Below are positions 4,730 to 23,104 of a stretch of 39,079 bases of DNA, piece after piece. The notes beneath the pieces were generated by a model. The model did not search any database and was not told the DNA's origin. It saw nothing but the letters and a program-made list of their open reading frames with translations. The DNA lies in NCBI GenBank assembly GCA_003142795.1, contig PLNN01000020.1, forward strand, positions 33,383 to 72,461, read 5' to 3'. This stretch comes from Candidatus Omnitrophota bacterium. Lineage in GTDB: Bacteria; Omnitrophota; Gorgyraeia; 2-01-FULL-45-10. Positions within the stretch are counted from its first letter, which is position 1; each line of letters opens with the position of its first letter. A program made the translations under genes and the position numbers.

Positions 4730-4960
4730 ATGTCAAAAATTTGCAAGATCTGCGGTAAAAAACCTGTTGCCGGAAGGACCATCGTCCGCCGGGGATTGGC
4801 AAAGAAAAAAGGCGGCGTAGGACAAAAGATAACAGGCATCACTCCGCGTCGTTTCTTACCTAACCTGAAGAACGTCCGCGCGCTGGTAAACGGCGTCCCG
4901 ATGAGGATACGCGTTTGCGTCAAGTGTCTTAAGGCCGGCAAGGTCATAAAAGCAGTTTAA
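4730..4960 (+). CDS. rpmB: 50S ribosomal protein L28
   Basis: 76 aa; MSKICKICGKKPVAGRTIVRRGLAKKKGGVGQKITGITPRRFLPNLKNVRA..., L28 family; upstream GGAG. Confidence 0.93.
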   Translation: MSKICKICGKKPVAGRTIVRRGLAKKKGGVGQKITGITPRRFLPNLKNVRALVNGVPMRIRVCVKCLKAGKVIKAV

Positions 4961-5036: not shown

Positions 5037-7052
5037 TTACTTTTTCTTCGTTGTCTCTAGTGTAGTGGATAGCTTCTTCGTGAAGTCCTGCAACATGCTC
5101 TTCATGCTCTCTTCGAGTTTCTTCTTATTGGGCTCAACGTATTGCTCTCTATATTTGGCTTCCTGCTGGAGGATGTATTCTTCCTCGAACGTCCTTTTCT
5201 CTTTTGCCTTTAGCTTTTCTATGATCCTGTCTATCTGGCTTGGAGGAAGCTTTTCAAGCTCTTTCTGCAATGGGTTCTTCTGCAATACGTTACTCGTATA
5301 CAGGGCCTCGGAGTTCTTCTCTATTATCTTCTTCACTTCATCATAATAGGGCTTTGTAGCTTCATTATATTCGAGCATTATCTTACTCTTTGCAGTGTCA
5401 AGGTTGGAAAAGATATTTTTTATATTGGCCAGGTCGCCTTCCTTTAATAGGTCGGGTATGGCCTGGGCTAAAAGGATATTGGCTACTGCCTGTAAGAGCT
5501 CATCAGTTGCCTTTTTAAGCTCAGGGTTAGCGTTGGCATCTTTTCCGATCACTTCATCCATATCTTTCACGAGGCTGGCTGCTATATCTATTACAGCCTT
5601 CTGGTCGTCTGTGGGGTTGGCAAGGCTGGACATAAGGGCCGTGGTGGATCCCGGCTCACGGCTACTGATGTCACCTAAAGAAACCGGCAATGCGGATTGA
5701 TCAAGGGATTTTTCGACAACATTAACAGGCGCGCCATACGATAGACCTCCGCTCATATCCAGCAAATTTTTCTTTTCAATAGCTGCTTTTAATGCCTCGC
5801 CTAGCCCTTTTTTAGTATTGTCGGAATTTTCTTTTCCGTAAGTGCTCCGCCCTGCAAAGTCTATGTATTCATTATTGTAATATGGCGAATTAGATAAAGA
5901 TCCGATAATATTTGTCAAAGTGCTTTCGTTGTTAAAGGCTGCTGTGTTTTCCGGGATAGGCGTCTCGGCGCGGCTTGTAATTATTGACGCAGTAGGGTAA
6001 CTCTGTGTGAAATAATCGCCATCGGAAGTTATCGTAACTGCGCCGGAGGCCGCTGAAAAGCCAGGTGCATAATAGTTATTATTCGTGGAAGTGACGACTG
6101 TGAGAGGTCCGTTCGGACGTGAAACAAGCGTTGGCGCACCGTTAACGATCTCCATGCCGTAGACATAGCGTGGTCCTTGGGCGCGGAACGCTGTCGGTGC
6201 GTTGAACGTATTATGGTCGAATTCCACATTGGAAAAAGCCATGTTCACCGCTCCCAAAGAATTGTTATTTATAATATTGTTTCTAAGTGTTAGGCTGGAT
6301 GAGTCTGTGATATTCACAGTATAGTCACCCGATGAAGTTATGGTAAAACCGTCGATTTCTGTGGGATCGCTAATATTGGATACCGTTAAACCTTCTATTG
6401 TAGTACGGTTGCCGATCAGATTCCTTTGCCCGCTCTCGTCGTACCCGCCGTAGAGACTGACCCCATCAATAGCGGATATCTGTTCATTGTACTCACCACC
6501 TCTTACAATGATCTTATCGCCGCTCTTAGCTACACCAAGTGCATCTTCTATGGTGGCTGTCCCTACATTATTAAATCCGGCGTAGAAATTCCTCACGCCT
6601 TCAAATACTTCCGAGCCCAGACGCGCACCTTCGTGCCATTCATTCCCGCTAGTATCGAGTTTATTATCTCCTGTTCCTATAGCTACATTATGTGCCGAAT
6701 CGACAAACTGGAACGTATTGCCTGCCGCTAAGACCTGCGGGCGGTTGGTGGCGCCTGTCTTTTGCTGCAAAACAGGGTTAGCGATCTGCTGCGCCGGCGC
6801 CTGCTCTTCCGTCTTGCGGCCTAGCTTATCTTTAAGAAAGTCTAGTGTGGATTCAAAAAACCCTTTTTCTTTATAGTTCGGCAGGTTTACCTTTAAGAAA
6901 CTATCCGCCTGATATTTCGCCGCATTTATATAGCCGGGGCTGAAGGTATAGGAGCTTTCTTGCGAGAGCCTGTCGGCCTTGTCCTCGGCAATAGAAAGAC
7001 ATGGTATTGCAAATGCCAGCGCAAAAATTAGTATTATTATTAGCTTTTTCAT
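5037..7052 (-). CDS. Secreted beta-helix-like repeat protein (paralog of 7063-9135)
   Basis: 671 aa; signal peptide MKKLIIILIFALAFAIPCLSIA; central IEGLTVSNISDPTEIDGFTITSSGDYTVNITDSSSLTLRNNIINNN resembles right-handed parallel beta-helix coils; helical Lys/Glu-rich C terminus. Confidence 0.8.
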   Translation of the reverse strand: MKKLIIILIFALAFAIPCLSIAEDKADRLSQESSYTFSPGYINAAKYQADSFLKVNLPNYKEKGFFESTLDFLKDKLGRKTEEQAPAQQIANPVLQQKTGATNRPQVLAAGNTFQFVDSAHNVAIGTGDNKLDTSGNEWHEGARLGSEVFEGVRNFYAGFNNVGTATIEDALGVAKSGDKIIVRGGEYNEQISAIDGVSLYGGYDESGQRNLIGNRTTIEGLTVSNISDPTEIDGFTITSSGDYTVNITDSSSLTLRNNIINNNSLGAVNMAFSNVEFDHNTFNAPTAFRAQGPRYVYGMEIVNGAPTLVSRPNGPLTVVTSTNNNYYAPGFSAASGAVTITSDGDYFTQSYPTASIITSRAETPIPENTAAFNNESTLTNIIGSLSNSPYYNNEYIDFAGRSTYGKENSDNTKKGLGEALKAAIEKKNLLDMSGGLSYGAPVNVVEKSLDQSALPVSLGDISSREPGSTTALMSSLANPTDDQKAVIDIAASLVKDMDEVIGKDANANPELKKATDELLQAVANILLAQAIPDLLKEGDLANIKNIFSNLDTAKSKIMLEYNEATKPYYDEVKKIIEKNSEALYTSNVLQKNPLQKELEKLPPSQIDRIIEKLKAKEKRTFEEEYILQQEAKYREQYVEPNKKKLEESMKSMLQDFTKKLSTTLETTKKK

Positions 7053-7062
7053 AACATTCTTC

Positions 7063-9135
7063 TTACTTTTTTTTCGTTGTCTCCAGTGTTGTGGATAGCT
7101 TCTTCGTGAAGTCCTGCAGCATGCTCTTCATACTTTCTTCGAGCTTCTTCTTATTGGGTTCAATGTATCGCTGTCTGTATTTGGCTTCCTGCTGGAGGAT
7201 GTACTCTTCCTCTGCGGTCCTCTTCTCTTTTGCTTTGAGCTTCTCTATGATCCTGTCTATCTGGCTCGGAGGAAGCATCTCAAGCTCTTTCTGTAACGGG
7301 TTCTTCTGTAACACGTTACTCGCATAGAGAGCCTCTGAGTTCTTCTCTATTATCTTCTTTACTTCATCATAATAGGGCTTTGTAGCATCGTTATACTCGA
7401 GTATTATCTTACTCTTTGCCGTATCGAGGTTAGAGAAGATGTTCTTTATATTGTACAGGTCGCCTTCCTTTAACAGGTCTGGTATGGCCTGGGCTAAAAG
7501 GATATTGGCTACTGCCTGTAAGAGCTCATCGGTTGCCTTTTTAAGCTCAGGGTTGGCGTTGGCATCTTTTTCTAGGTTATCCATATCCGTCAAGAGCTTT
7601 GTCGTTTCATCTATCACGGTCTTCTGGTCGTCGGTGGGGTTAGAGATGATCTTGGATAATGTCTTGGCCGCATCCATGGCCTGCTGTTCCGCGGTCGTCC
7701 CCTTGAGGCCGTTATCCTGTATCGCCTTATTCACTATTTTACTTAATAGCGCCGGATCCAATTCGCCTCCGCCTTTGGAGGATAGACTGTCTCCTTTGAG
7801 CAGATCTTTAAACATAGAACCCACGGCGCCTGGATCAGTGCTGGCAATGCTTGCAGCGTTGTAGGCATTCGTATACAGGCTCTGGTCATTATATTTATTG
7901 TACACATATTGGGAAGTCAAGATTGTCGGAGCTGAAGAACCTGTATAAGGCGAACTGGAATATGTAGTTATAGCAGGTCCGTTCATATCGCCATTCAATA
8001 CATTTGGTCCACCTGCAAAACCGTTAAATATAAAATTCTGCGATGGATTTGTCCCTCCATTAAAATAATCATTCGTTGAATAAAAAGCGTAGGGTGATCT
8101 GGGAATATAAGTTTCTATTGCTGCGCTTCCATAAAAGTTATTATCTGACGAATGTATGTCTGCGTTTTCTATTACCGGCCCATGCACGGTGTCCGTAAAA
8201 TTATTGCCGTTAAGCGTGAGACTGCATCCATGGCTCTCGAAAAGTGAATTAAAGATATTATTTTCAAAAGTTATATTTCCTCCGCCTTCTGCGTCAAACC
8301 AGTCGTTAAAAGTGTTATTGCTGAAATCTAAACCGGTCTGGGACCAAATAGCTACCGGATCCTGGAAAATAAACCCGTTTATTTTTGCATCGGACGTGCT
8401 TATGGTAACTCCCTCCAGATATGTCGAATTATTGCTAATATCCCTTTCCCCCGTGTCATTATAACCGCCATATAGATTGACGGCCTTATCTATTAACACC
8501 CCATTTGGATAGCCATACATGTCTCCTTTTACTATTATAGTGTCGCCAGCATTCGCGATGTTGAGCGCATCACCAATATTACCCATCCCGGTCCCTACAG
8601 TATCCCCTTCAAAGGAGCCGGCATATATGAATCTTACGTCGTTATCACCTATACGCAATATCTCGGACACCATTCTGCCGTCATATCCTGCATCTGTGCT
8701 AAGGACACCATTGATGTCACGCTTATCATTTCCCTTGCCTATCGGCACATTAAACTGAGTAGACTGGGTCACAATTGTCGCGTTGATTACCTTAGCCGGT
8801 GTTTGAGTGGTATTGACGCTGCCTGTCTTCATTTGCAGGACGGGATTAGCGACCTGCTGCGCCGGCGCCTGTTCCTCTGTCTTACGGCCTAATTTATTTT
8901 TCACAAAGTCCATGGCAGATTCAAAAAATCCCTTCTCTTTATAATCCGGCATATTTACCTTTAAATAGCTATCAGCCTGATATTTGGCCGCATTGATATA
9001 GCCCGGGCTAAAGGTATAAGAACTATCCTGGGAAAGCTTGTCCGATTTGTCCTCACCATATGCAAAGCATAAAGAAGTCCCTGCCACCAAGAATAGGATT
9101 GTTCCTGTGATCAGCATAGCCTTTAAGGTTTTCAT
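7063..9135 (-). CDS. Secreted beta-helix-like repeat protein, riboswitch-proximal paralog
   Basis: 690 aa; signal peptide; central INGFIFQDPVAIWSQTGLDFSNNTFNDWFDAEGGGNITFENNIFNS; N and C termini nearly identical to the 5037-7052 product; SD AAGGAG upstream of the ATG. Confidence 0.82.
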   Translation of the reverse strand: MKTLKAMLITGTILFLVAGTSLCFAYGEDKSDKLSQDSSYTFSPGYINAAKYQADSYLKVNMPDYKEKGFFESAMDFVKNKLGRKTEEQAPAQQVANPVLQMKTGSVNTTQTPAKVINATIVTQSTQFNVPIGKGNDKRDINGVLSTDAGYDGRMVSEILRIGDNDVRFIYAGSFEGDTVGTGMGNIGDALNIANAGDTIIVKGDMYGYPNGVLIDKAVNLYGGYNDTGERDISNNSTYLEGVTISTSDAKINGFIFQDPVAIWSQTGLDFSNNTFNDWFDAEGGGNITFENNIFNSLFESHGCSLTLNGNNFTDTVHGPVIENADIHSSDNNFYGSAAIETYIPRSPYAFYSTNDYFNGGTNPSQNFIFNGFAGGPNVLNGDMNGPAITTYSSSPYTGSSAPTILTSQYVYNKYNDQSLYTNAYNAASIASTDPGAVGSMFKDLLKGDSLSSKGGGELDPALLSKIVNKAIQDNGLKGTTAEQQAMDAAKTLSKIISNPTDDQKTVIDETTKLLTDMDNLEKDANANPELKKATDELLQAVANILLAQAIPDLLKEGDLYNIKNIFSNLDTAKSKIILEYNDATKPYYDEVKKIIEKNSEALYASNVLQKNPLQKELEMLPPSQIDRIIEKLKAKEKRTAEEEYILQQEAKYRQRYIEPNKKKLEESMKSMLQDFTKKLSTTLETTKKK

Positions 9136-9166: not shown

Positions 9167-9199
9167 AAAAAACCTATTCACGCCATTATATGAATAGGT
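9167..9199 (-). terminator. Intrinsic terminator (riboswitch expression platform)
   Basis: Minus strand ACCTATTCA-tataatggcg-TGAATAGGTTTTTT: 9-bp stem followed by T6, just upstream of the SD of the 7063-9135 gene. Confidence 0.88.
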
Positions 9200-9204
9200 C
9201 CGCT

Positions 9205-9300
9205 TAAGCTTCGGCAACTGACTGCCATGTCCTCTTCTTTAGGGGGAGTTAGGCTCATAGCTTTGCGACCCATTCTTTCGAATGGTGTGCCTTTATCGTT
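9205..9300 (-). ncRNA. Cyclic di-GMP-I (GEMM-I) riboswitch aptamer
   Basis: Minus strand AAAGGCACACCATTCGAAAGAATGGGTCGCAAAGCTATGAGCCTAACTCCCCCTAAAGAAGAGGACATGGCAGTCAGTTGCCGAAGC. Matches GEMM-I hallmarks: CCATTCGAAAGAATGG GAAA-tetraloop hairpin, CGCAAAGC core with the intercalating A, GTTGCCGAAGC 3' half. Confidence 0.92.
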
Positions 9301-9364: not shown

Positions 9365-10681
9365 TTAACGCGGCCCATGTCTTCTATCTACGAAGAAGAC
9401 GCTTTTACCTTCAAGCTTTGCGCGAGTCTTGACCTCAACGGCAATATTGGTCAACTCTCCGTAACTCGTTATGGGCCGGAACTGGTTAGTTACTCCGGAC
9501 AATGATATGCTCATTATCGGGAATTTTACAAATTCGCCTTTTCGATTTTTGGCGGTTATATACCCTGCTTGCAGGTCTCCCTCGGAATAGAAACTTTTTA
9601 TACCGGCGTCGAAATCCGATATTATTTGCGAGGCGACAGCCTCACCCCTTTCAGGAGTCGTCAAGACAAAGAAGTCGTCTCCGCCTTCATGTCCTATGAA
9701 ATCACCGCTCTCGCCTTTATCTTTTACGGCCTTTTGCAATATCTTGCTCGTGAACTTGATGATCTCGTCACCTTTGCCTACGCCGTATTTATCGTTATAT
9801 GCCTTAAAATCATTCAGGTCTATGTGTAGAGCGATGAATTTCTCATTGCGCCTTATCCTGGCTTCTATCTCCTCGCGTATGGTGGTATTACCGGGCAGTT
9901 TCGTCAACGGGTTCGCGTTCTCCGCCTTTTCCTTTATCTTCTTCAGCGCAACCGTCATTTCGTTGAACGTCTCACCCAGCTCCTGTATCTCATCATTCGT
10001 TTTTATATTTACATTCATATCGAGGTTACCGGACGCTATGTCTTTGGTAGCTATATTTAAAAGCCTGATAGGCCAAACGATTGTCCTCAATAAGATCAAC
10101 CCGAGGAACACGTTGCCTATGATAACGGCTATTATGGTCAGGATTATAGGGACAAATATGCTTACGATGGCCTGCTGGATGTTGCCTACGGAGAACGACA
10201 GCTTGACGATGTATTTGGTCGACGTTTCAAGCGACAGCGGGATATATATCTCTATCAGTTGCGTATTTTTATTTAACCTGGAATAGAACCACGTGCTTTC
10301 GCTTGATGTCCTGGACAGGTCCTTGTACGTCTCGATATCCTTACCGGATTCGCCGAACTCCCGCATCATGGGATCATTGGTAGCGACCGTCTCGCCGGTC
10401 ATGGAGAGTATCGATATCTTCTCTACGATCTCTTCGTCGGAAAATGATTTTATGGCGGCTTCGAATATACTTGGGGCTGTTTCTTCGGAATGGATATCTT
10501 TGAGGAGAAGCTCCAGCGTCGTTTTTACTATTATCGTCCCGACGCGGGCCCTGTATTTATTGTAGGAGTTGAGCCTGTCTATCTGGTCGCGGAGCTGTAT
10601 GGTGGTAAAGACGGCTATAAATAATAAAGACATGCCAACGATCAATAGGCCGACTCTTACCTGTAGGGGCACTTTCTTCAT
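9365..10681 (-). CDS. Membrane-anchored HAMP-GGDEF protein (predicted diguanylate cyclase)
   Basis: Two TM helices around an extracytoplasmic region, HAMP (WPIRLLNIATKDIASGNLDMNVNIKTNDEIQELGETFNEM), GGDEF domain (LHIDLNDFKAYNDKYGVGKGDEIIKF...GHEGGDDFFVL). Start revised from track TTG 10720 to ATG 10681 (MKKVPLQVRVGLLIVG) because the TTG lies in a -35 box. Confidence 0.88.
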   Translation of the reverse strand: MKKVPLQVRVGLLIVGMSLLFIAVFTTIQLRDQIDRLNSYNKYRARVGTIIVKTTLELLLKDIHSEETAPSIFEAAIKSFSDEEIVEKISILSMTGETVATNDPMMREFGESGKDIETYKDLSRTSSESTWFYSRLNKNTQLIEIYIPLSLETSTKYIVKLSFSVGNIQQAIVSIFVPIILTIIAVIIGNVFLGLILLRTIVWPIRLLNIATKDIASGNLDMNVNIKTNDEIQELGETFNEMTVALKKIKEKAENANPLTKLPGNTTIREEIEARIRRNEKFIALHIDLNDFKAYNDKYGVGKGDEIIKFTSKILQKAVKDKGESGDFIGHEGGDDFFVLTTPERGEAVASQIISDFDAGIKSFYSEGDLQAGYITAKNRKGEFVKFPIMSISLSGVTNQFRPITSYGELTNIAVEVKTRAKLEGKSVFFVDRRHGPR

Positions 10682-10691
10682 ATTAAAATAT

Positions 10692-10720
10692 AATATACCA
10701 TCATTATCACATTCTGTCAA
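10692..10720 (-). promoter_or_regulatory. Sigma70-type promoter of the GGDEF gene
   Basis: Minus strand TTGACA (10720-10715), 17-bp spacer, TATATT (10697-10692). Confidence 0.75.
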
Positions 10721-12166: not shown

Positions 12167-13546
12167 TTACATCGTCGGGAATTTGTGATTTCCGGTGGTG
12201 ATTATGTTTCCTTTTTCAAAAGCAAGAAGGAACGCGCCGACAACGACCGGATCGAACTGCGTCCCGGAGCAGCGTTTTATCTCCTGTATCGCGTCTTCAA
12301 CGCTCTTCTTCTTTTTATAGGGCCGATTACTCGTGATCGCGTCGAACGCGTCCGCGACAGATATTATCCGCGCTACCAGGGGAATGTCCCTGCCCTTTAA
12401 TCCGTCAGGATATCCTGAACCGTCATAGCATTCCTGGTGATAACGCACTTCCCTGGCGACATCGCTCAGTTCTTTGATAGGATGAAGGATCGTCGCGCCG
12501 ATTATCGAATGCTTCTTTATTTCTTCGAACTCTTCGGGCAGGAGGCTGCCGTGTTTATTCAACACGTGGTCCGGGACCCCGATCTTGCCGATGTCATGCA
12601 AGAGCGCCGATATCTGCAGGGTCTCCCTGAAATTCTTGTATGATGCGACCTCCGGCATGCCTTCGAGCTCTCTTGCTATGGAAAGGCAATAGGTCGTAAC
12701 TCGCTCCGTATGGCCGTGAGTGTACGGGTCCCGCGCGTCTATGGCTGCCGCAAGCGCGATGGCCGTGTGGATGAATATCCTGTGCTCCCGGATGTAAAGC
12801 TCCTTTATCTCCTCTATCTTACCCTGGAGGTTCTCGATAAGCTGGGCATTGGCGAGTGCCATTGCCGCATCATTGGCCAGCGTAACGAAAAATCCCATCT
12901 CTTCCCTGCTAAAACCCTCGCCCGATATTTTGTCGCCCAGCACGAGGATGCCGAGAAGGTCTTTCTTGAAGTAGCAGGGAACGCAGAGGTTCGCCTTTAT
13001 GAGGTCCATCTGTTTTTTAATTAAGAGCAGCCTGTCATAAAGGTCCGGCTGTTTTTCGAGGACTTCCCTGTTGCGAAGAGAATTTATCAGGTCCTCGTAA
13101 GCAAGAATGCCTGTTTCGGATACGAGATAATTCTCCTTCTCATCGAACGCGGCTATAAGGGGATTTTCGGGGCTCATTTTTATGAAGCCGATAGGGATCT
13201 TGATGCCCTCGCTGCCCTTGGAATCTATCAGTATAAATGAGTGCTTTTGTTCTTTATATAACAGCACTGCCGTATGAGTCACGCCCAGCTGCTCGTCGAT
13301 CGTGCGGACTATCATTTTGATAAGGTGCTCGGGCTTGCGGAACCTTATCATGGTCCTCGACGCCTTCTCCATGAATGATTGATAGTCGGACCGCGTCGCG
13401 GAGCCTTGCGCCCCGTCGGCCCCCCTCGGGATCCTTTTATTCTCAGGCGCGGGCGGGCCGTCCGGATTCGCTATCTTATCCAGAAAAGAATTTTGCAGCT
13501 TATCCCAGCTGGGAGCCTTCTTCGGCTTATCCATGTTTTTATCCAT
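12167..13546 (-). CDS. GAF / HD-GYP domain protein (predicted c-di-GMP phosphodiesterase)
   Basis: HGHTERVTTYCLSIA, SALLHDIGKIGVPDHVL, RYHQECYDGSGYPDGLKGRDIPLVARIISVADAFDAITSNRPYKK. Confidence 0.9.
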   Translation of the reverse strand: MDKNMDKPKKAPSWDKLQNSFLDKIANPDGPPAPENKRIPRGADGAQGSATRSDYQSFMEKASRTMIRFRKPEHLIKMIVRTIDEQLGVTHTAVLLYKEQKHSFILIDSKGSEGIKIPIGFIKMSPENPLIAAFDEKENYLVSETGILAYEDLINSLRNREVLEKQPDLYDRLLLIKKQMDLIKANLCVPCYFKKDLLGILVLGDKISGEGFSREEMGFFVTLANDAAMALANAQLIENLQGKIEEIKELYIREHRIFIHTAIALAAAIDARDPYTHGHTERVTTYCLSIARELEGMPEVASYKNFRETLQISALLHDIGKIGVPDHVLNKHGSLLPEEFEEIKKHSIIGATILHPIKELSDVAREVRYHQECYDGSGYPDGLKGRDIPLVARIISVADAFDAITSNRPYKKKKSVEDAIQEIKRCSGTQFDPVVVGAFLLAFEKGNIITTGNHKFPTM

Positions 13547-18972: not shown

Positions 18973-20994
18973 TTATTTCGTAGCAGAAAATATTATAATA
19001 AATTTTGCGTCTTCGCTCTCCCCGCTGGTTACTCGCATATTACCGCGATTACGCCATACGAGCTGCCGCACGATTGACAGGTCAAACCATACTGTGCAGC
19101 CATTACAGACTATCTCGATAATAATATTGGTATCTTTTTCATTGTAAGCCTTTATCACAATAGTGCCGCTTTCTTTAGTGGCTTGGCCGGCACTCCGCAG
19201 TATAGTGAAAAATATCTGCTGTATTTGTCTTTTGTCGGCCATTATCTGGGGCAGATTTTTGTCTATATCCATTGCTATACTTATATGCTCCATCTCAAGC
19301 TCATGACCGATAACGCTAATAGTCTCTTCGACCTGCTCTCTAATATCTACAGGCTCCGTTTTCAGGTCCTTTGAAGGCCTGGCAAAATTTGATAGCTTCT
19401 TTGTAATATCATTTATCCTCGCTGTCTGTTCCAGGCAAATATTCATTACGTTTTTGGCTTCATTTATTGCATAATCTAGGTTCTTGTCACTATATGATCC
19501 TTTCTCAAGGCTTATCATGTAATCCTGGATATTGGTGTTTATCATGTTGAGCGGGTCACCTATCTCATGGTTTATGCCGGCGGCCAGCGTACCCACAGCA
19601 GCTCTCCGCTCATTTTGCGCGGCCTCAGCAAAGAGCTGGGCATTTGCTATGGCGATTGCCTCTGTTCTTGCCAGATCAATTAATATGTCTAGGTCGTCTT
19701 GGGTGTAGTTTTCGTCGGACCTCTTTTTGCCAAGCATCATAATTCCGATAAGGTCATTGTGAAGCATTAGAGGAATGGCAAGATGTGCGCCGGTTTCGAG
19801 AAGCCCATTTTTCAATTCGTCAACTTTAGAATTTTTCTCATCTTCTATCGAGATGATACCTTTTACTGCCTTCAAAGCTTTCGTAATCTTTGAAGAACTG
19901 TCAAAAATTATCTCTTCATCATATCCCATAGTTTTATAAGAAACGTATTTGTCTTCATATCGATTAAACAGCAATACCGCCGCTCTCTCGGGATGCAGCG
20001 TTTTATCCAATAACTCAAGTGTCCTTTGTATTGCATCGTCAAGACTCAATATGGTCAAAACTTCGTCAATGAAAGACTTCAAAACTTGTTTGTAATCATA
20101 CTTCTTCTGGAAAAGGTATTTATCGGTTATATTTATAAGAAAGGTTTTAATTCGACGCATTGTAAGGATAATAATAATACCACTAATAATCAGCCCTACC
20201 ATCCTACCGCCTGTTCCTGCTCCTCTAAACAATAATTCCTGAATAAGTAATGTCGGCACAACCAGCATAGTAAAGATAGCCGCAAGAAGCCCCGTAAAAA
20301 CAAGGGTCTTCTTTATAACAACTTCTATATCCATCAGGTGGTGACGAACAATAGCGTAAGATGTAACAATAGGGTATATGCATATCAAAACGCTTGCAAA
20401 TGGAGGCACTTTTATATTTAAAATTAAAAAGAAAAGCGAAATCCCTCCGGCAAAACCAAGTGCGGTTCCCGCAAAAAAATATCGTAACTGGTTTCTTCTT
20501 TCCCCGGATGATTTTCTTAATGCTACATACAACAATCCATTGCCATAACCGGCGAATACACAATACATTAACGCATAAATCGGATATAAAACTCCCCATT
20601 CCGGGTAATATTTAATATTAAGCTTTAACACCACATCTTTAACAACTAATGGAGTAAAGCAAAACAGAAACATGGCACTTGAAAATATATAAGAAGTTAA
20701 AATAATTTTTTTAAATTTTTCTCTCGAGTCTAATAGGACTACCACGAAATCAAAAAATAGAATAGGGACATACGCCCCAAATGCGTGAGAAATGCGACTA
20801 AAGGTTAATGAAAGACGATGATCAAAATATCCTGTCAAGGTCAGAAAATATCCAAAACACCATAAGGATATACTCAGACTCAACAAAAACCATTTCCCGC
20901 TAAGCACTCTTTGCCTGTTATTAAAATAGACAAACATGCCTAGTGAAAAACTAAGAATGGCTGTTATGCCTGTAGTCAGAGCATAAAAATTCAT
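18973..20994 (-). CDS. Multi-TM GAF histidine kinase paralog with degenerate ATPase domain
   Basis: H-box GINHEIGDPLN present; N-box FFTILRSAGQA lacks both Asn; G1/F/G2 region shortened to CNGCTVWFDLSIVRQ. Start revised from 21042 to ATG 20994 (MNFYALTTG). Confidence 0.88.
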   Translation of the reverse strand: MNFYALTTGITAILSFSLGMFVYFNNRQRVLSGKWFLLSLSISLWCFGYFLTLTGYFDHRLSLTFSRISHAFGAYVPILFFDFVVVLLDSREKFKKIILTSYIFSSAMFLFCFTPLVVKDVVLKLNIKYYPEWGVLYPIYALMYCVFAGYGNGLLYVALRKSSGERRNQLRYFFAGTALGFAGGISLFFLILNIKVPPFASVLICIYPIVTSYAIVRHHLMDIEVVIKKTLVFTGLLAAIFTMLVVPTLLIQELLFRGAGTGGRMVGLIISGIIIILTMRRIKTFLINITDKYLFQKKYDYKQVLKSFIDEVLTILSLDDAIQRTLELLDKTLHPERAAVLLFNRYEDKYVSYKTMGYDEEIIFDSSSKITKALKAVKGIISIEDEKNSKVDELKNGLLETGAHLAIPLMLHNDLIGIMMLGKKRSDENYTQDDLDILIDLARTEAIAIANAQLFAEAAQNERRAAVGTLAAGINHEIGDPLNMINTNIQDYMISLEKGSYSDKNLDYAINEAKNVMNICLEQTARINDITKKLSNFARPSKDLKTEPVDIREQVEETISVIGHELEMEHISIAMDIDKNLPQIMADKRQIQQIFFTILRSAGQATKESGTIVIKAYNEKDTNIIIEIVCNGCTVWFDLSIVRQLVWRNRGNMRVTSGESEDAKFIIIFSATK

Positions 20995-21001
20995 GACATC
21001 T

Positions 21002-23104
21002 TTATCCTGTTGTAAATATTGCCGTAAACGTTGTCCCCTCACCCACTTTACTCTTTACTTTTATATCACCCTTATTACGCCAGACAAGCTGACGCACTAT
21101 TGATAAACCAAGGCCTGTGCCGGAATCTTCATCTTTGGTGGTATAAAAAGGCTCGTAGATCTTATCTATCTTATCTTCAGGGATGCCGCAACCGTTATCT
21201 GTGATCTCAATGTGGACACTTCCGTTTTTTTTATCATAAGCCTTTATCTCTATAACACCGTTTTCTTTAATTGCCTGACCGGCATTTCGCAGGATATTGA
21301 ATAATATCTGCTGAATATGTCGTTTGTCGGCCATTATCTCAGGAAGGCCTTTGTCGATATTTTTTATGACATTTATACGCTCCGTTTCAAGCTCATGCCC
21401 TATAACCCTAAGGGTTTCCTCTATCTGTTCTGCTACGTCGACCGGCTCAGGCGTAAAGTCTTTCGCAGGCTTAGCGAAGTTTGAGAGTTTCCTTGCAATA
21501 TCCGATATCCTAGCCGTTTGCTGAAGACACAAGTTCATAACATCTTTGGCTTCACCTATAACCTCCTTCGGATCTTTATCGCGATACAAACCTTTTCCAA
21601 GAGCCATAAGATATACCTGGATATTGGTGTTTATTATATTTAGGGGATTACCTATCTCATGATTTATACCAGCGGAGAGCGTACCCATGGCGGCTCTTCG
21701 CTCATTTTGCGCGGCATCGGCAAAGAGCTGGGCATTTCCTATGGCGATCGCTTCTGTTCTAGCCAAGCCAGTCAATATATCGAGATCATCCTGGGTATAG
21801 TTTTCGTCGGACTTCTTTTTGCCAAGTAGCATGATACCAATAAGGTCATCGTGAAGCATTAATGGAATGGCGAGATGAACACCGATCCTGCCAAACTCAT
21901 CCTTTAATTCGTCCGCTCCGGCGCCTTCCTTGCCTTCTATCAAAACGATATCTTTTGCCTGCTTCAGGGCTTTTGTAATTCTTGAAGAACTCTTCAAAAT
22001 TATATCTTTATCGTATCCTAAAGCTCGATATGAAGCATACTCGTCGTTATATCTATTTATCAATAGTACATCCACCTTCTCAGGATGGAGCGTTTTAACA
22101 AGTAGCTCAACTGTTTTTTGTATTACGTCATCAAGATTCAAGATCGTAAGGACTTCATCAATGAAAGATTTTAATACTTGCTTATAGTCGTATTTCTTCT
22201 GGAAAAGATATTTATCAGTGATATTCATAAGAAAAGTCTCTATGCGACGCATAGTGAGTATGATAATTATACCGCTTATCGCAAGACCAAGAACCCTCGT
22301 ACTAAAACTCGCACTTCTTAATATGTAATCTTGGATAAGCAGTGTGGGCAGTATCAATATAGCAAAAACCGACGCTAGAAGACCCGCAAAAATAAGGGCT
22401 TTCTTCATTACTACTTCGATGTCAAGCAGCTGATGGCGAATGATAGCAAAAGCCACAATGGAAATAAAAATTGCTATGTTGTAACAACCGAATGGATAAA
22501 ATTGCAATCCATAGCTTGGAAGAAAATCGACAGAACCAATGTTGCCCAAGAGATAAGCCCAAAAAACATATCGAATTCTATTTTTTTCTATATCACTATG
22601 CTGTTTCGATAGCGAACCATAACCAAATCTGTATAGTTGAGTTAGGCAATATGCGAACATGCTTAATGCATAAAACCAAAACATAGGATTTAATAACCCC
22701 GCCTTAGGGTACGGACCCCAAAAATATATGAAAAATCCATTAATGATACTATCTGACCACATTGTCGCTACAATAAACATAAGTCCCAGAGTATATGTTA
22801 AAACTAGGAATATTCTATTTTTTATATCTAGAAATTTTGAAGTAAAATGCACATAAAAAATAGCTATAAGAGTTACACCAAGATATGCAAATTTAGACAA
22901 AAGTAATATTGTGGTAATATAAGCAGGTAGCGTGTATAGCAAAAAGCAGGAATACAGCCATACGACTCCGCCAAAACATACAAGTGATAGCAACCAATTA
23001 AGTAACCGCCTTGGATTAGACTTAATAATGAATATGGCAAGGCAAAATAAAAATGTACCTACGATGAATGGTGAGCCTCTATAAAAATAATCCATAGGAT
23101 TCAT
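21002..23104 (-). CDS. Multi-TM GAF-HisKA-HATPase histidine kinase (intact)
   Basis: H-box GINHEIGNPLN, N-box LFNILRNAGQA, G1 DNGCGIPEDKI, FYTTKDEDSGTGLGLSIVRQ. Confidence 0.92.
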   Translation of the reverse strand: MNPMDYFYRGSPFIVGTFLFCLAIFIIKSNPRRLLNWLLSLVCFGGVVWLYSCFLLYTLPAYITTILLLSKFAYLGVTLIAIFYVHFTSKFLDIKNRIFLVLTYTLGLMFIVATMWSDSIINGFFIYFWGPYPKAGLLNPMFWFYALSMFAYCLTQLYRFGYGSLSKQHSDIEKNRIRYVFWAYLLGNIGSVDFLPSYGLQFYPFGCYNIAIFISIVAFAIIRHQLLDIEVVMKKALIFAGLLASVFAILILPTLLIQDYILRSASFSTRVLGLAISGIIIILTMRRIETFLMNITDKYLFQKKYDYKQVLKSFIDEVLTILNLDDVIQKTVELLVKTLHPEKVDVLLINRYNDEYASYRALGYDKDIILKSSSRITKALKQAKDIVLIEGKEGAGADELKDEFGRIGVHLAIPLMLHDDLIGIMLLGKKKSDENYTQDDLDILTGLARTEAIAIGNAQLFADAAQNERRAAMGTLSAGINHEIGNPLNIINTNIQVYLMALGKGLYRDKDPKEVIGEAKDVMNLCLQQTARISDIARKLSNFAKPAKDFTPEPVDVAEQIEETLRVIGHELETERINVIKNIDKGLPEIMADKRHIQQILFNILRNAGQAIKENGVIEIKAYDKKNGSVHIEITDNGCGIPEDKIDKIYEPFYTTKDEDSGTGLGLSIVRQLVWRNKGDIKVKSKVGEGTTFTAIFTTG

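Follow-up and report, generated by a model that had tools for sequence, protein, structure and literature searches.

The window analysed here, a 39,079-nucleotide stretch of a Candidatus Omnitrophota MAG (1.94 Mb, 92% complete), carries on its minus strand a HAMP-GGDEF gene, a riboswitch leader and two genes for paralogous secreted proteins. The first gene downstream of the leader (7063-9135) encodes a 690-aa protein comprising a signal peptide, an FSPGYINAA motif, a β-rich middle and a helical C-terminal domain. The second (5037-7052) encodes a 671-aa paralogue, 54% identical to the first, with a right-handed β-helix match (PF13229, 3.7e-9). Both proteins have a signal-peptide-like start and share the architecture of their family, in which the FSPGYINAA N-terminus and the helical C-terminal domain are conserved and the middle is variable and partly β-helical. 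No Pfam or NCBIfam model matched the 690-aa protein. Its AlphaFold model is of low quality as a whole (pLDDT 53.6); it shows a β-rich middle (about residues 137-335, pLDDT mostly 60-90) and a helical C-terminal region, and no significant fold match to it was found in the PDB. The protein as a lone query had no match in a database of genome contigs; an alignment-based search with its family returned relatives whose named records are all Candidatus Omnitrophota.

The HAMP-GGDEF gene (9365-10720, minus strand, with a likelier start at the ATG at 10681) lies directly upstream of the riboswitch. Its product has a GGDDF motif, keeps the canonical KAYND...GDE positions and is a probable diguanylate cyclase. 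A homologue of this gene also immediately precedes the leader in G002:C111, G005:C60, G021:C127, G003:C146 and G010:C43 (genome and contig), and genes of the secreted-protein family often lie downstream of it. Farther upstream are genes for a GAF-histidine kinase and for a GAF-HD-GYP protein (12167-13546, minus strand; PF13487, 7e-40), a possible c-di-GMP phosphodiesterase that matched a NosR-family phosphodiesterase model below its cut-off. Two adjoining 7TM-GAF histidine kinase-like proteins are encoded at 18973-23104, and the one at 18973-21042, which has no HATPase match, may be degenerate. The source genome has a second copy of the riboswitch and the paralogue pair on its contig C7. Three other leaders of the same secreted-protein family, L095 3560-3640 (G010:C43), L120 at about 4830-4910 (G011:C64) and L118 1714-1797 (G003:C146), keep the terminator while the aptamer is undetectable or has its 5' half replaced by a repeat (33 bits), an apparent loss of the riboswitch judging from these sequences.

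Aptamer and likely ligand

We searched the whole window with Rfam cmscan, and the single above-threshold match was RF01051, c-di-GMP-I (GEMM-I), at 9301-9210 on the minus strand. The match is full length (model positions 1-87) and scores 71.6 bits (E=2.7e-12) against a curated cut-off of 35. The aptamer is an ordinary RF01051 member. The original prediction had placed a c-di-GMP-I aptamer with a terminator platform at 9167-9300 and had proposed this covariance-model search as a check; the match bears out the assignment, and the coordinates were correct to within one base. Helix P2 is a CCAUUC-GAAA-GAAUGG hairpin at 9270-9285, placed by the covariance-model alignment, and across eight homologous leaders 100% of its cells are paired, with covariation.

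Ligand specificity was read from two pocket positions, using the Vc2 numbering that we take to place G20 and C92 in this aptamer. The covariance-model alignment puts a G at position 20, within AAAGGCA, and keeps the 3' CC of the C92 region intact, within UUGCCGAA, in agreement with the bases assigned earlier by eye. GEMM-I also contains cGAMP-selective variants, and both A20 and C20 forms occur in this family of genomes, so recognition of cGAMP or another dinucleotide has to be weighed; it would be compatible with the switching mechanism proposed below. The A20 of the GEMM-Ib (cGAMP) type is found in 6 of 64 same-family aptamers, and the G20 aptamer of the window is not among them. The adjoining GGDEF protein retains the Asp of its GDE motif (KAYNDKYGVGKGDEII), the position at which cGAMP-making Hypr enzymes have a Ser (GSx), and nine GGDEF proteins are encoded in the source genome. 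Sensing of a dinucleotide other than c-di-GMP is thus improbable. Because of G20 and the adjoining GGDEF with its canonical GDE motif, c-di-GMP is favoured over cGAMP and is most likely the ligand, as the original prediction preferred.

Eight of the 64 same-family aptamers carry a C at position 20 (L044, L050, L061, L066, L067, L068 and L074; genomes G015, G017 and G019). All eight end at the 3' side in CCGTT, CCGAT or CTGTT instead of CCGAA, and their binding pocket is possibly altered.

Terminator and competing strand

An intrinsic terminator, ACCTATTCA...TGAATAGGT followed by six T, occupies 9201-9167 on the minus strand, between the aptamer and the start codon, with 12 pairs and its 3' strand UGAAUAGGU at 9180-9172. 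Two terminator-like sites were found in the region against 0.3 expected. The Shine-Dalgarno sequence AAGGAG lies at 9149-9144, 8 nt ahead of the ATG at 9135, and the order of terminator, Shine-Dalgarno sequence and ATG is the one first described. Upstream of the aptamer, we infer a riboswitch-local promoter from a candidate -10 box, TATACT, at 9316-9311; the same GTATACTT precedes the aptamer in G000:C7 and in the G021 homologues.

The original prediction had pointed to a CTTAAG repeat through which the aptamer tail might pair with the Shine-Dalgarno region. Both copies of the motif do exist, in the linker and at the Shine-Dalgarno sequence, which is what translational control through this pairing would need. 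The pairing itself was rejected, since its predicted probability is about 0.002 and the pair of motifs is missing from the homologous leaders; the Shine-Dalgarno sequence is predicted to pair with CCUUAA of the first codons instead. Translational control by this route is very improbable. Within 9150-9115, the pairing of UUAAGG with CCUUAA (codons 3-5 of the downstream gene) has a predicted probability of about 0.98, so initiation of the first gene may be weak or regulated.

A different element emerged that the original prediction did not contain, namely the complementarity of the terminator 5' strand to the P2 3' strand and core. The switching strand GCGGACCUAUUC (9203-9192, the T strand) is formed by the linker and the terminator 5' strand. 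It is complementary to GAAUGGGUCGC (9275-9265), which is made up of the P2 3' strand and the conserved CGC core, and a pairing of 11 bp is possible between them, in which a single G (9200 or 9201) is bulged out. The duplex of core and T strand comes to -15.0 kcal/mol; a comparison with 500 dinucleotide-shuffled sequences gave p=0.004. We modelled the nascent transcript by equilibrium folding at successive transcript lengths. P2 has a probability of 1.0 until the switching strand emerges. The antiterminator then reaches 0.79-0.85 at 120-122 nt, with P2 at 0.17 or less, stands at about 0.55, or about even, at 124-128 nt, and rises to 0.92-0.93 at 130-138 nt with P2 near 0. At 142 nt the terminator has a probability of 0.97 and P2 is restored. 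The folding thus predicts that the antiterminator pairing prevails before the terminator is complete. Once the terminator is complete, the antiterminator and terminator folds are close in energy in the window, and in the homologue G003:C78 the antiterminator fold wins at equilibrium; equilibrium alone therefore does not decide the outcome.

The terminator 5' strand starts 9 nt past the end of the aptamer, and the two have no base in common, whereas the antiterminator does share bases with the aptamer. Ligand should therefore favour termination, which would make this an OFF switch. The opposite direction, in which binding somehow blocks the terminator as in Geobacter pilM, finds support in the frequency of overlap-type platforms, presumably ON switches, in this lineage and in the source genome itself, which has three such sites, on contigs C38, C4 and C56 (C56 by inspection). 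An overlap of this type between terminator and aptamer was looked for in the window and is absent, which removes direct overlap as a way to an ON switch here, and folding revealed no antiterminator that the bound aptamer would stabilise. A ligand-ON switch is accordingly unlikely. Should the OFF logic be correct, c-di-GMP would repress the pair of secreted proteins and permit the large proteins of C38, C56 and C4. The C38 riboswitch precedes an Ig/β-helix protein of more than 2300 aa, and that of C4 a protein of more than 939 aa. The overlap-type GEMM-I riboswitch on C56 precedes a 2448-aa protein (L036:581-7927, minus strand) with a signal-peptide-like start, an SNF2 helicase domain and a methyltransferase domain, which is an uncommon kind of target for c-di-GMP.

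Conservation and recurrence in Omnitrophota

Eight leaders have this architecture in common: the window, G000:C7, G021:C192, G021:C127, G003:C78, G005:C60, G002:C111 and G011:C2. Of the 64 antiterminator cells, 61 are paired (permutation P=0.025). A MAFFT alignment of the full leaders had put the T strand of G003:C78 in the wrong place, so pairs were counted on trimmed, gap-free strands that had been aligned by hand to fit the proposed pairing. Slid registers gave only 28-59% paired, and the covariation score and percentage paired were equalled by 8 of 500 shuffles, a control that ignores phylogeny among eight sequences that are few and related. The clearest change is in G003:C78, where the P2 3' strand AGAUAGGC fits the T strand GCCUGUCU; the window has GAAUGGGU and ACCUAUUC in these places. 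Read with these limits, covariation of the antiterminator across the eight leaders is moderate evidence for the pairing.

Folding points the same way for most of the set, and six of the eight leaders are predicted to form the antiterminator ahead of the terminator. In G021:C192 and G005:C60 folding does not give the exact 8-bp antiterminator as the dominant structure, although G005 still loses P2. When linker and T strand were shuffled, P2 fell below 0.2 in none of 120 shuffles for the window, none of 120 for G000:C7 and 8% for G003:C78; for G011:C2 the shuffles often disrupt P2 (p=0.165).

We then considered the pairing over larger sets of GEMM-I sites. Among same-family riboswitches it is enriched in the 37 with an aptamer-independent terminator, the eight homologues included (Fisher 6e-7), and no enrichment was seen in the 15 whose terminator overlaps the aptamer. 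In 84 sites selected with covariance model R1, a sample biased because the model itself selects window-type terminators, swapped partners beat the native ones in 0 of 20000 permutations. A class-wide sample selected with RF01051 only was therefore added, and its 42 independent-terminator sites gave Fisher 7e-4 and a swap-test P of 0.017, with pairing individually at p<0.05 in 7 of the 42; its 17 overlap-type control sites had no overall pairing signal. As judged by these pairing statistics, the P2-invading design recurs in Omnitrophota at a minority of sites and is not universal.

These results bear on a further reading, in which the resemblance of P2 and terminator is a coincidence or a side effect of hairpins that are alike in composition, and the terminator is constitutive or controlled by another antiterminator. 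It is in keeping with the two weak homologues and with the many independent terminators that lack significant pairing. The shuffle, slide and swap tests argue against it, as does the pairing at the same position in eight homologues with bases changed on both sides, and we consider it a poor explanation of the data. On balance the chances somewhat favour a broader view, that of a GEMM-I OFF platform which recurs in Omnitrophota and is common to many riboswitches of the class. In this platform the 5' strand of the terminator would imitate that of P2 and invade both P2 and the ligand-binding core, so that switching would act on the part of the aptamer presumed to be a fixed scaffold.

RF01051 sites are abundant in this lineage, with five in the source genome and matches in 23 of 26 same-family genomes and in 53 of the 59 genomes sampled from the class. 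Given the last count, c-di-GMP-I riboswitches are probably a major regulator in this class. The phylum has no cultured member according to its main survey paper, and the open literature that we searched held nothing on c-di-GMP or riboswitches in Omnitrophota.

Several unusual aptamers were observed in the lineage. GEMM-I-like aptamers at L037:7560-7683 (G000:C4), L088, L090, L092 and L046 have a two-hairpin insert of 40-55 nt that interrupts the conserved core, with GACG before it and CAAAGCC after it, and their Rfam match is weak or leaves the insert as a gap. The insert consists of UCCC..GGGA followed by CUGCCACC..GGUGGUAG, and both sides of its second stem vary from genome to genome (CCACC/GGTGG, CGGCC/GGCCG, CCGCC/GGCGG). 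Pairs of c-di-GMP-I aptamers in tandem, spaced by about 100 nt, occur at L046:4827-4943 and 5048-5128 (G018:C36) and at two sites of L242 (G035:C45). In viral contigs an exact GEMM pattern had no match and a looser one had eight; viral contig L327 bears a c-di-GMP-I-GGC aptamer (RF03167 best) with a T strand that is similar by eye.

Proposed switch and known GEMM-I systems

We propose, with a probability of about 0.7, that the leader is a transcriptional OFF-type c-di-GMP-I riboswitch with a P2-invading antiterminator. The course of events, kinetics included, is what we infer from the computed aptamer, terminator, complementarity, covariation and gene context. Polymerase would transcribe the aptamer first. 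With c-di-GMP bound, the aptamer would keep P2 and its core, leaving the linker and terminator strand free, so that the terminator forms and the two downstream genes, whose products are presumed to act as secreted proteins of a surface type, stay untranscribed. Without ligand, the emerging GCGGACCUAUUC would invade P2 and form 11 bp with GAAUGGGUCGC, which would destroy the binding pocket, sequester the 5' half of the terminator and allow read-through. Together, the HAMP-GGDEF gene, the riboswitch and the secreted-protein family would make up a testable local signalling circuit.

The aptamer is a new member of a known family. It has the GEMM-I fold, the G20 and the 3' CC pocket bases of Vibrio cholerae Vc2, which is described as a translational OFF switch acting via P1 stability, unlike the transcriptional platform of the window. 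RF03167, c-di-GMP-I-GGC, belongs to the same clan as RF01051, and the window scores best with RF01051. The Geobacter metallireducens pilM riboswitch has the A20 type and responds to cGAMP. It shares with the window the GEMM-I fold and transcriptional control; as described in PMC9262584, this GEMM-Ib RNA is an ON switch whose terminator uses the aptamer strand and is mutually exclusive with the aptamer, whereas the terminator of the window does not overlap its aptamer.

The closest parallel is Cd1 of Clostridioides difficile, a c-di-GMP-I transcriptional OFF switch (PMC9262584). In that account, Cd1 has, like the window, a GEMM-I aptamer, OFF logic, an independent terminator compatible with the bound aptamer and an antiterminator that competes with the aptamer. 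Its antiterminator is described there as the T strand with the aptamer-stabilising A strand (+H), and at nt 148 the P3 signals are gone and P2 is seen in the unbound form; its authors regard P2 and P3 as a conserved scaffold and P1 as the variable, tuning element (PMC9262584). Compared with this text description, the window differs in having no A-strand antiterminator that leaves P2 standing; its T strand is predicted to open P2 and the CGC core, with P2 falling to about 0. A GEMM-I platform that opens P2 was not found in the open literature searched, a search beyond whose reach most subscription papers lie, so priority cannot be firmly claimed. The platform is probably a new variant of the OFF type, by a route that is not the one described for characterised c-di-GMP-I switches. 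If this holds, a P2-invading antiterminator would be a second way to build an OFF switch on the GEMM-I aptamer.
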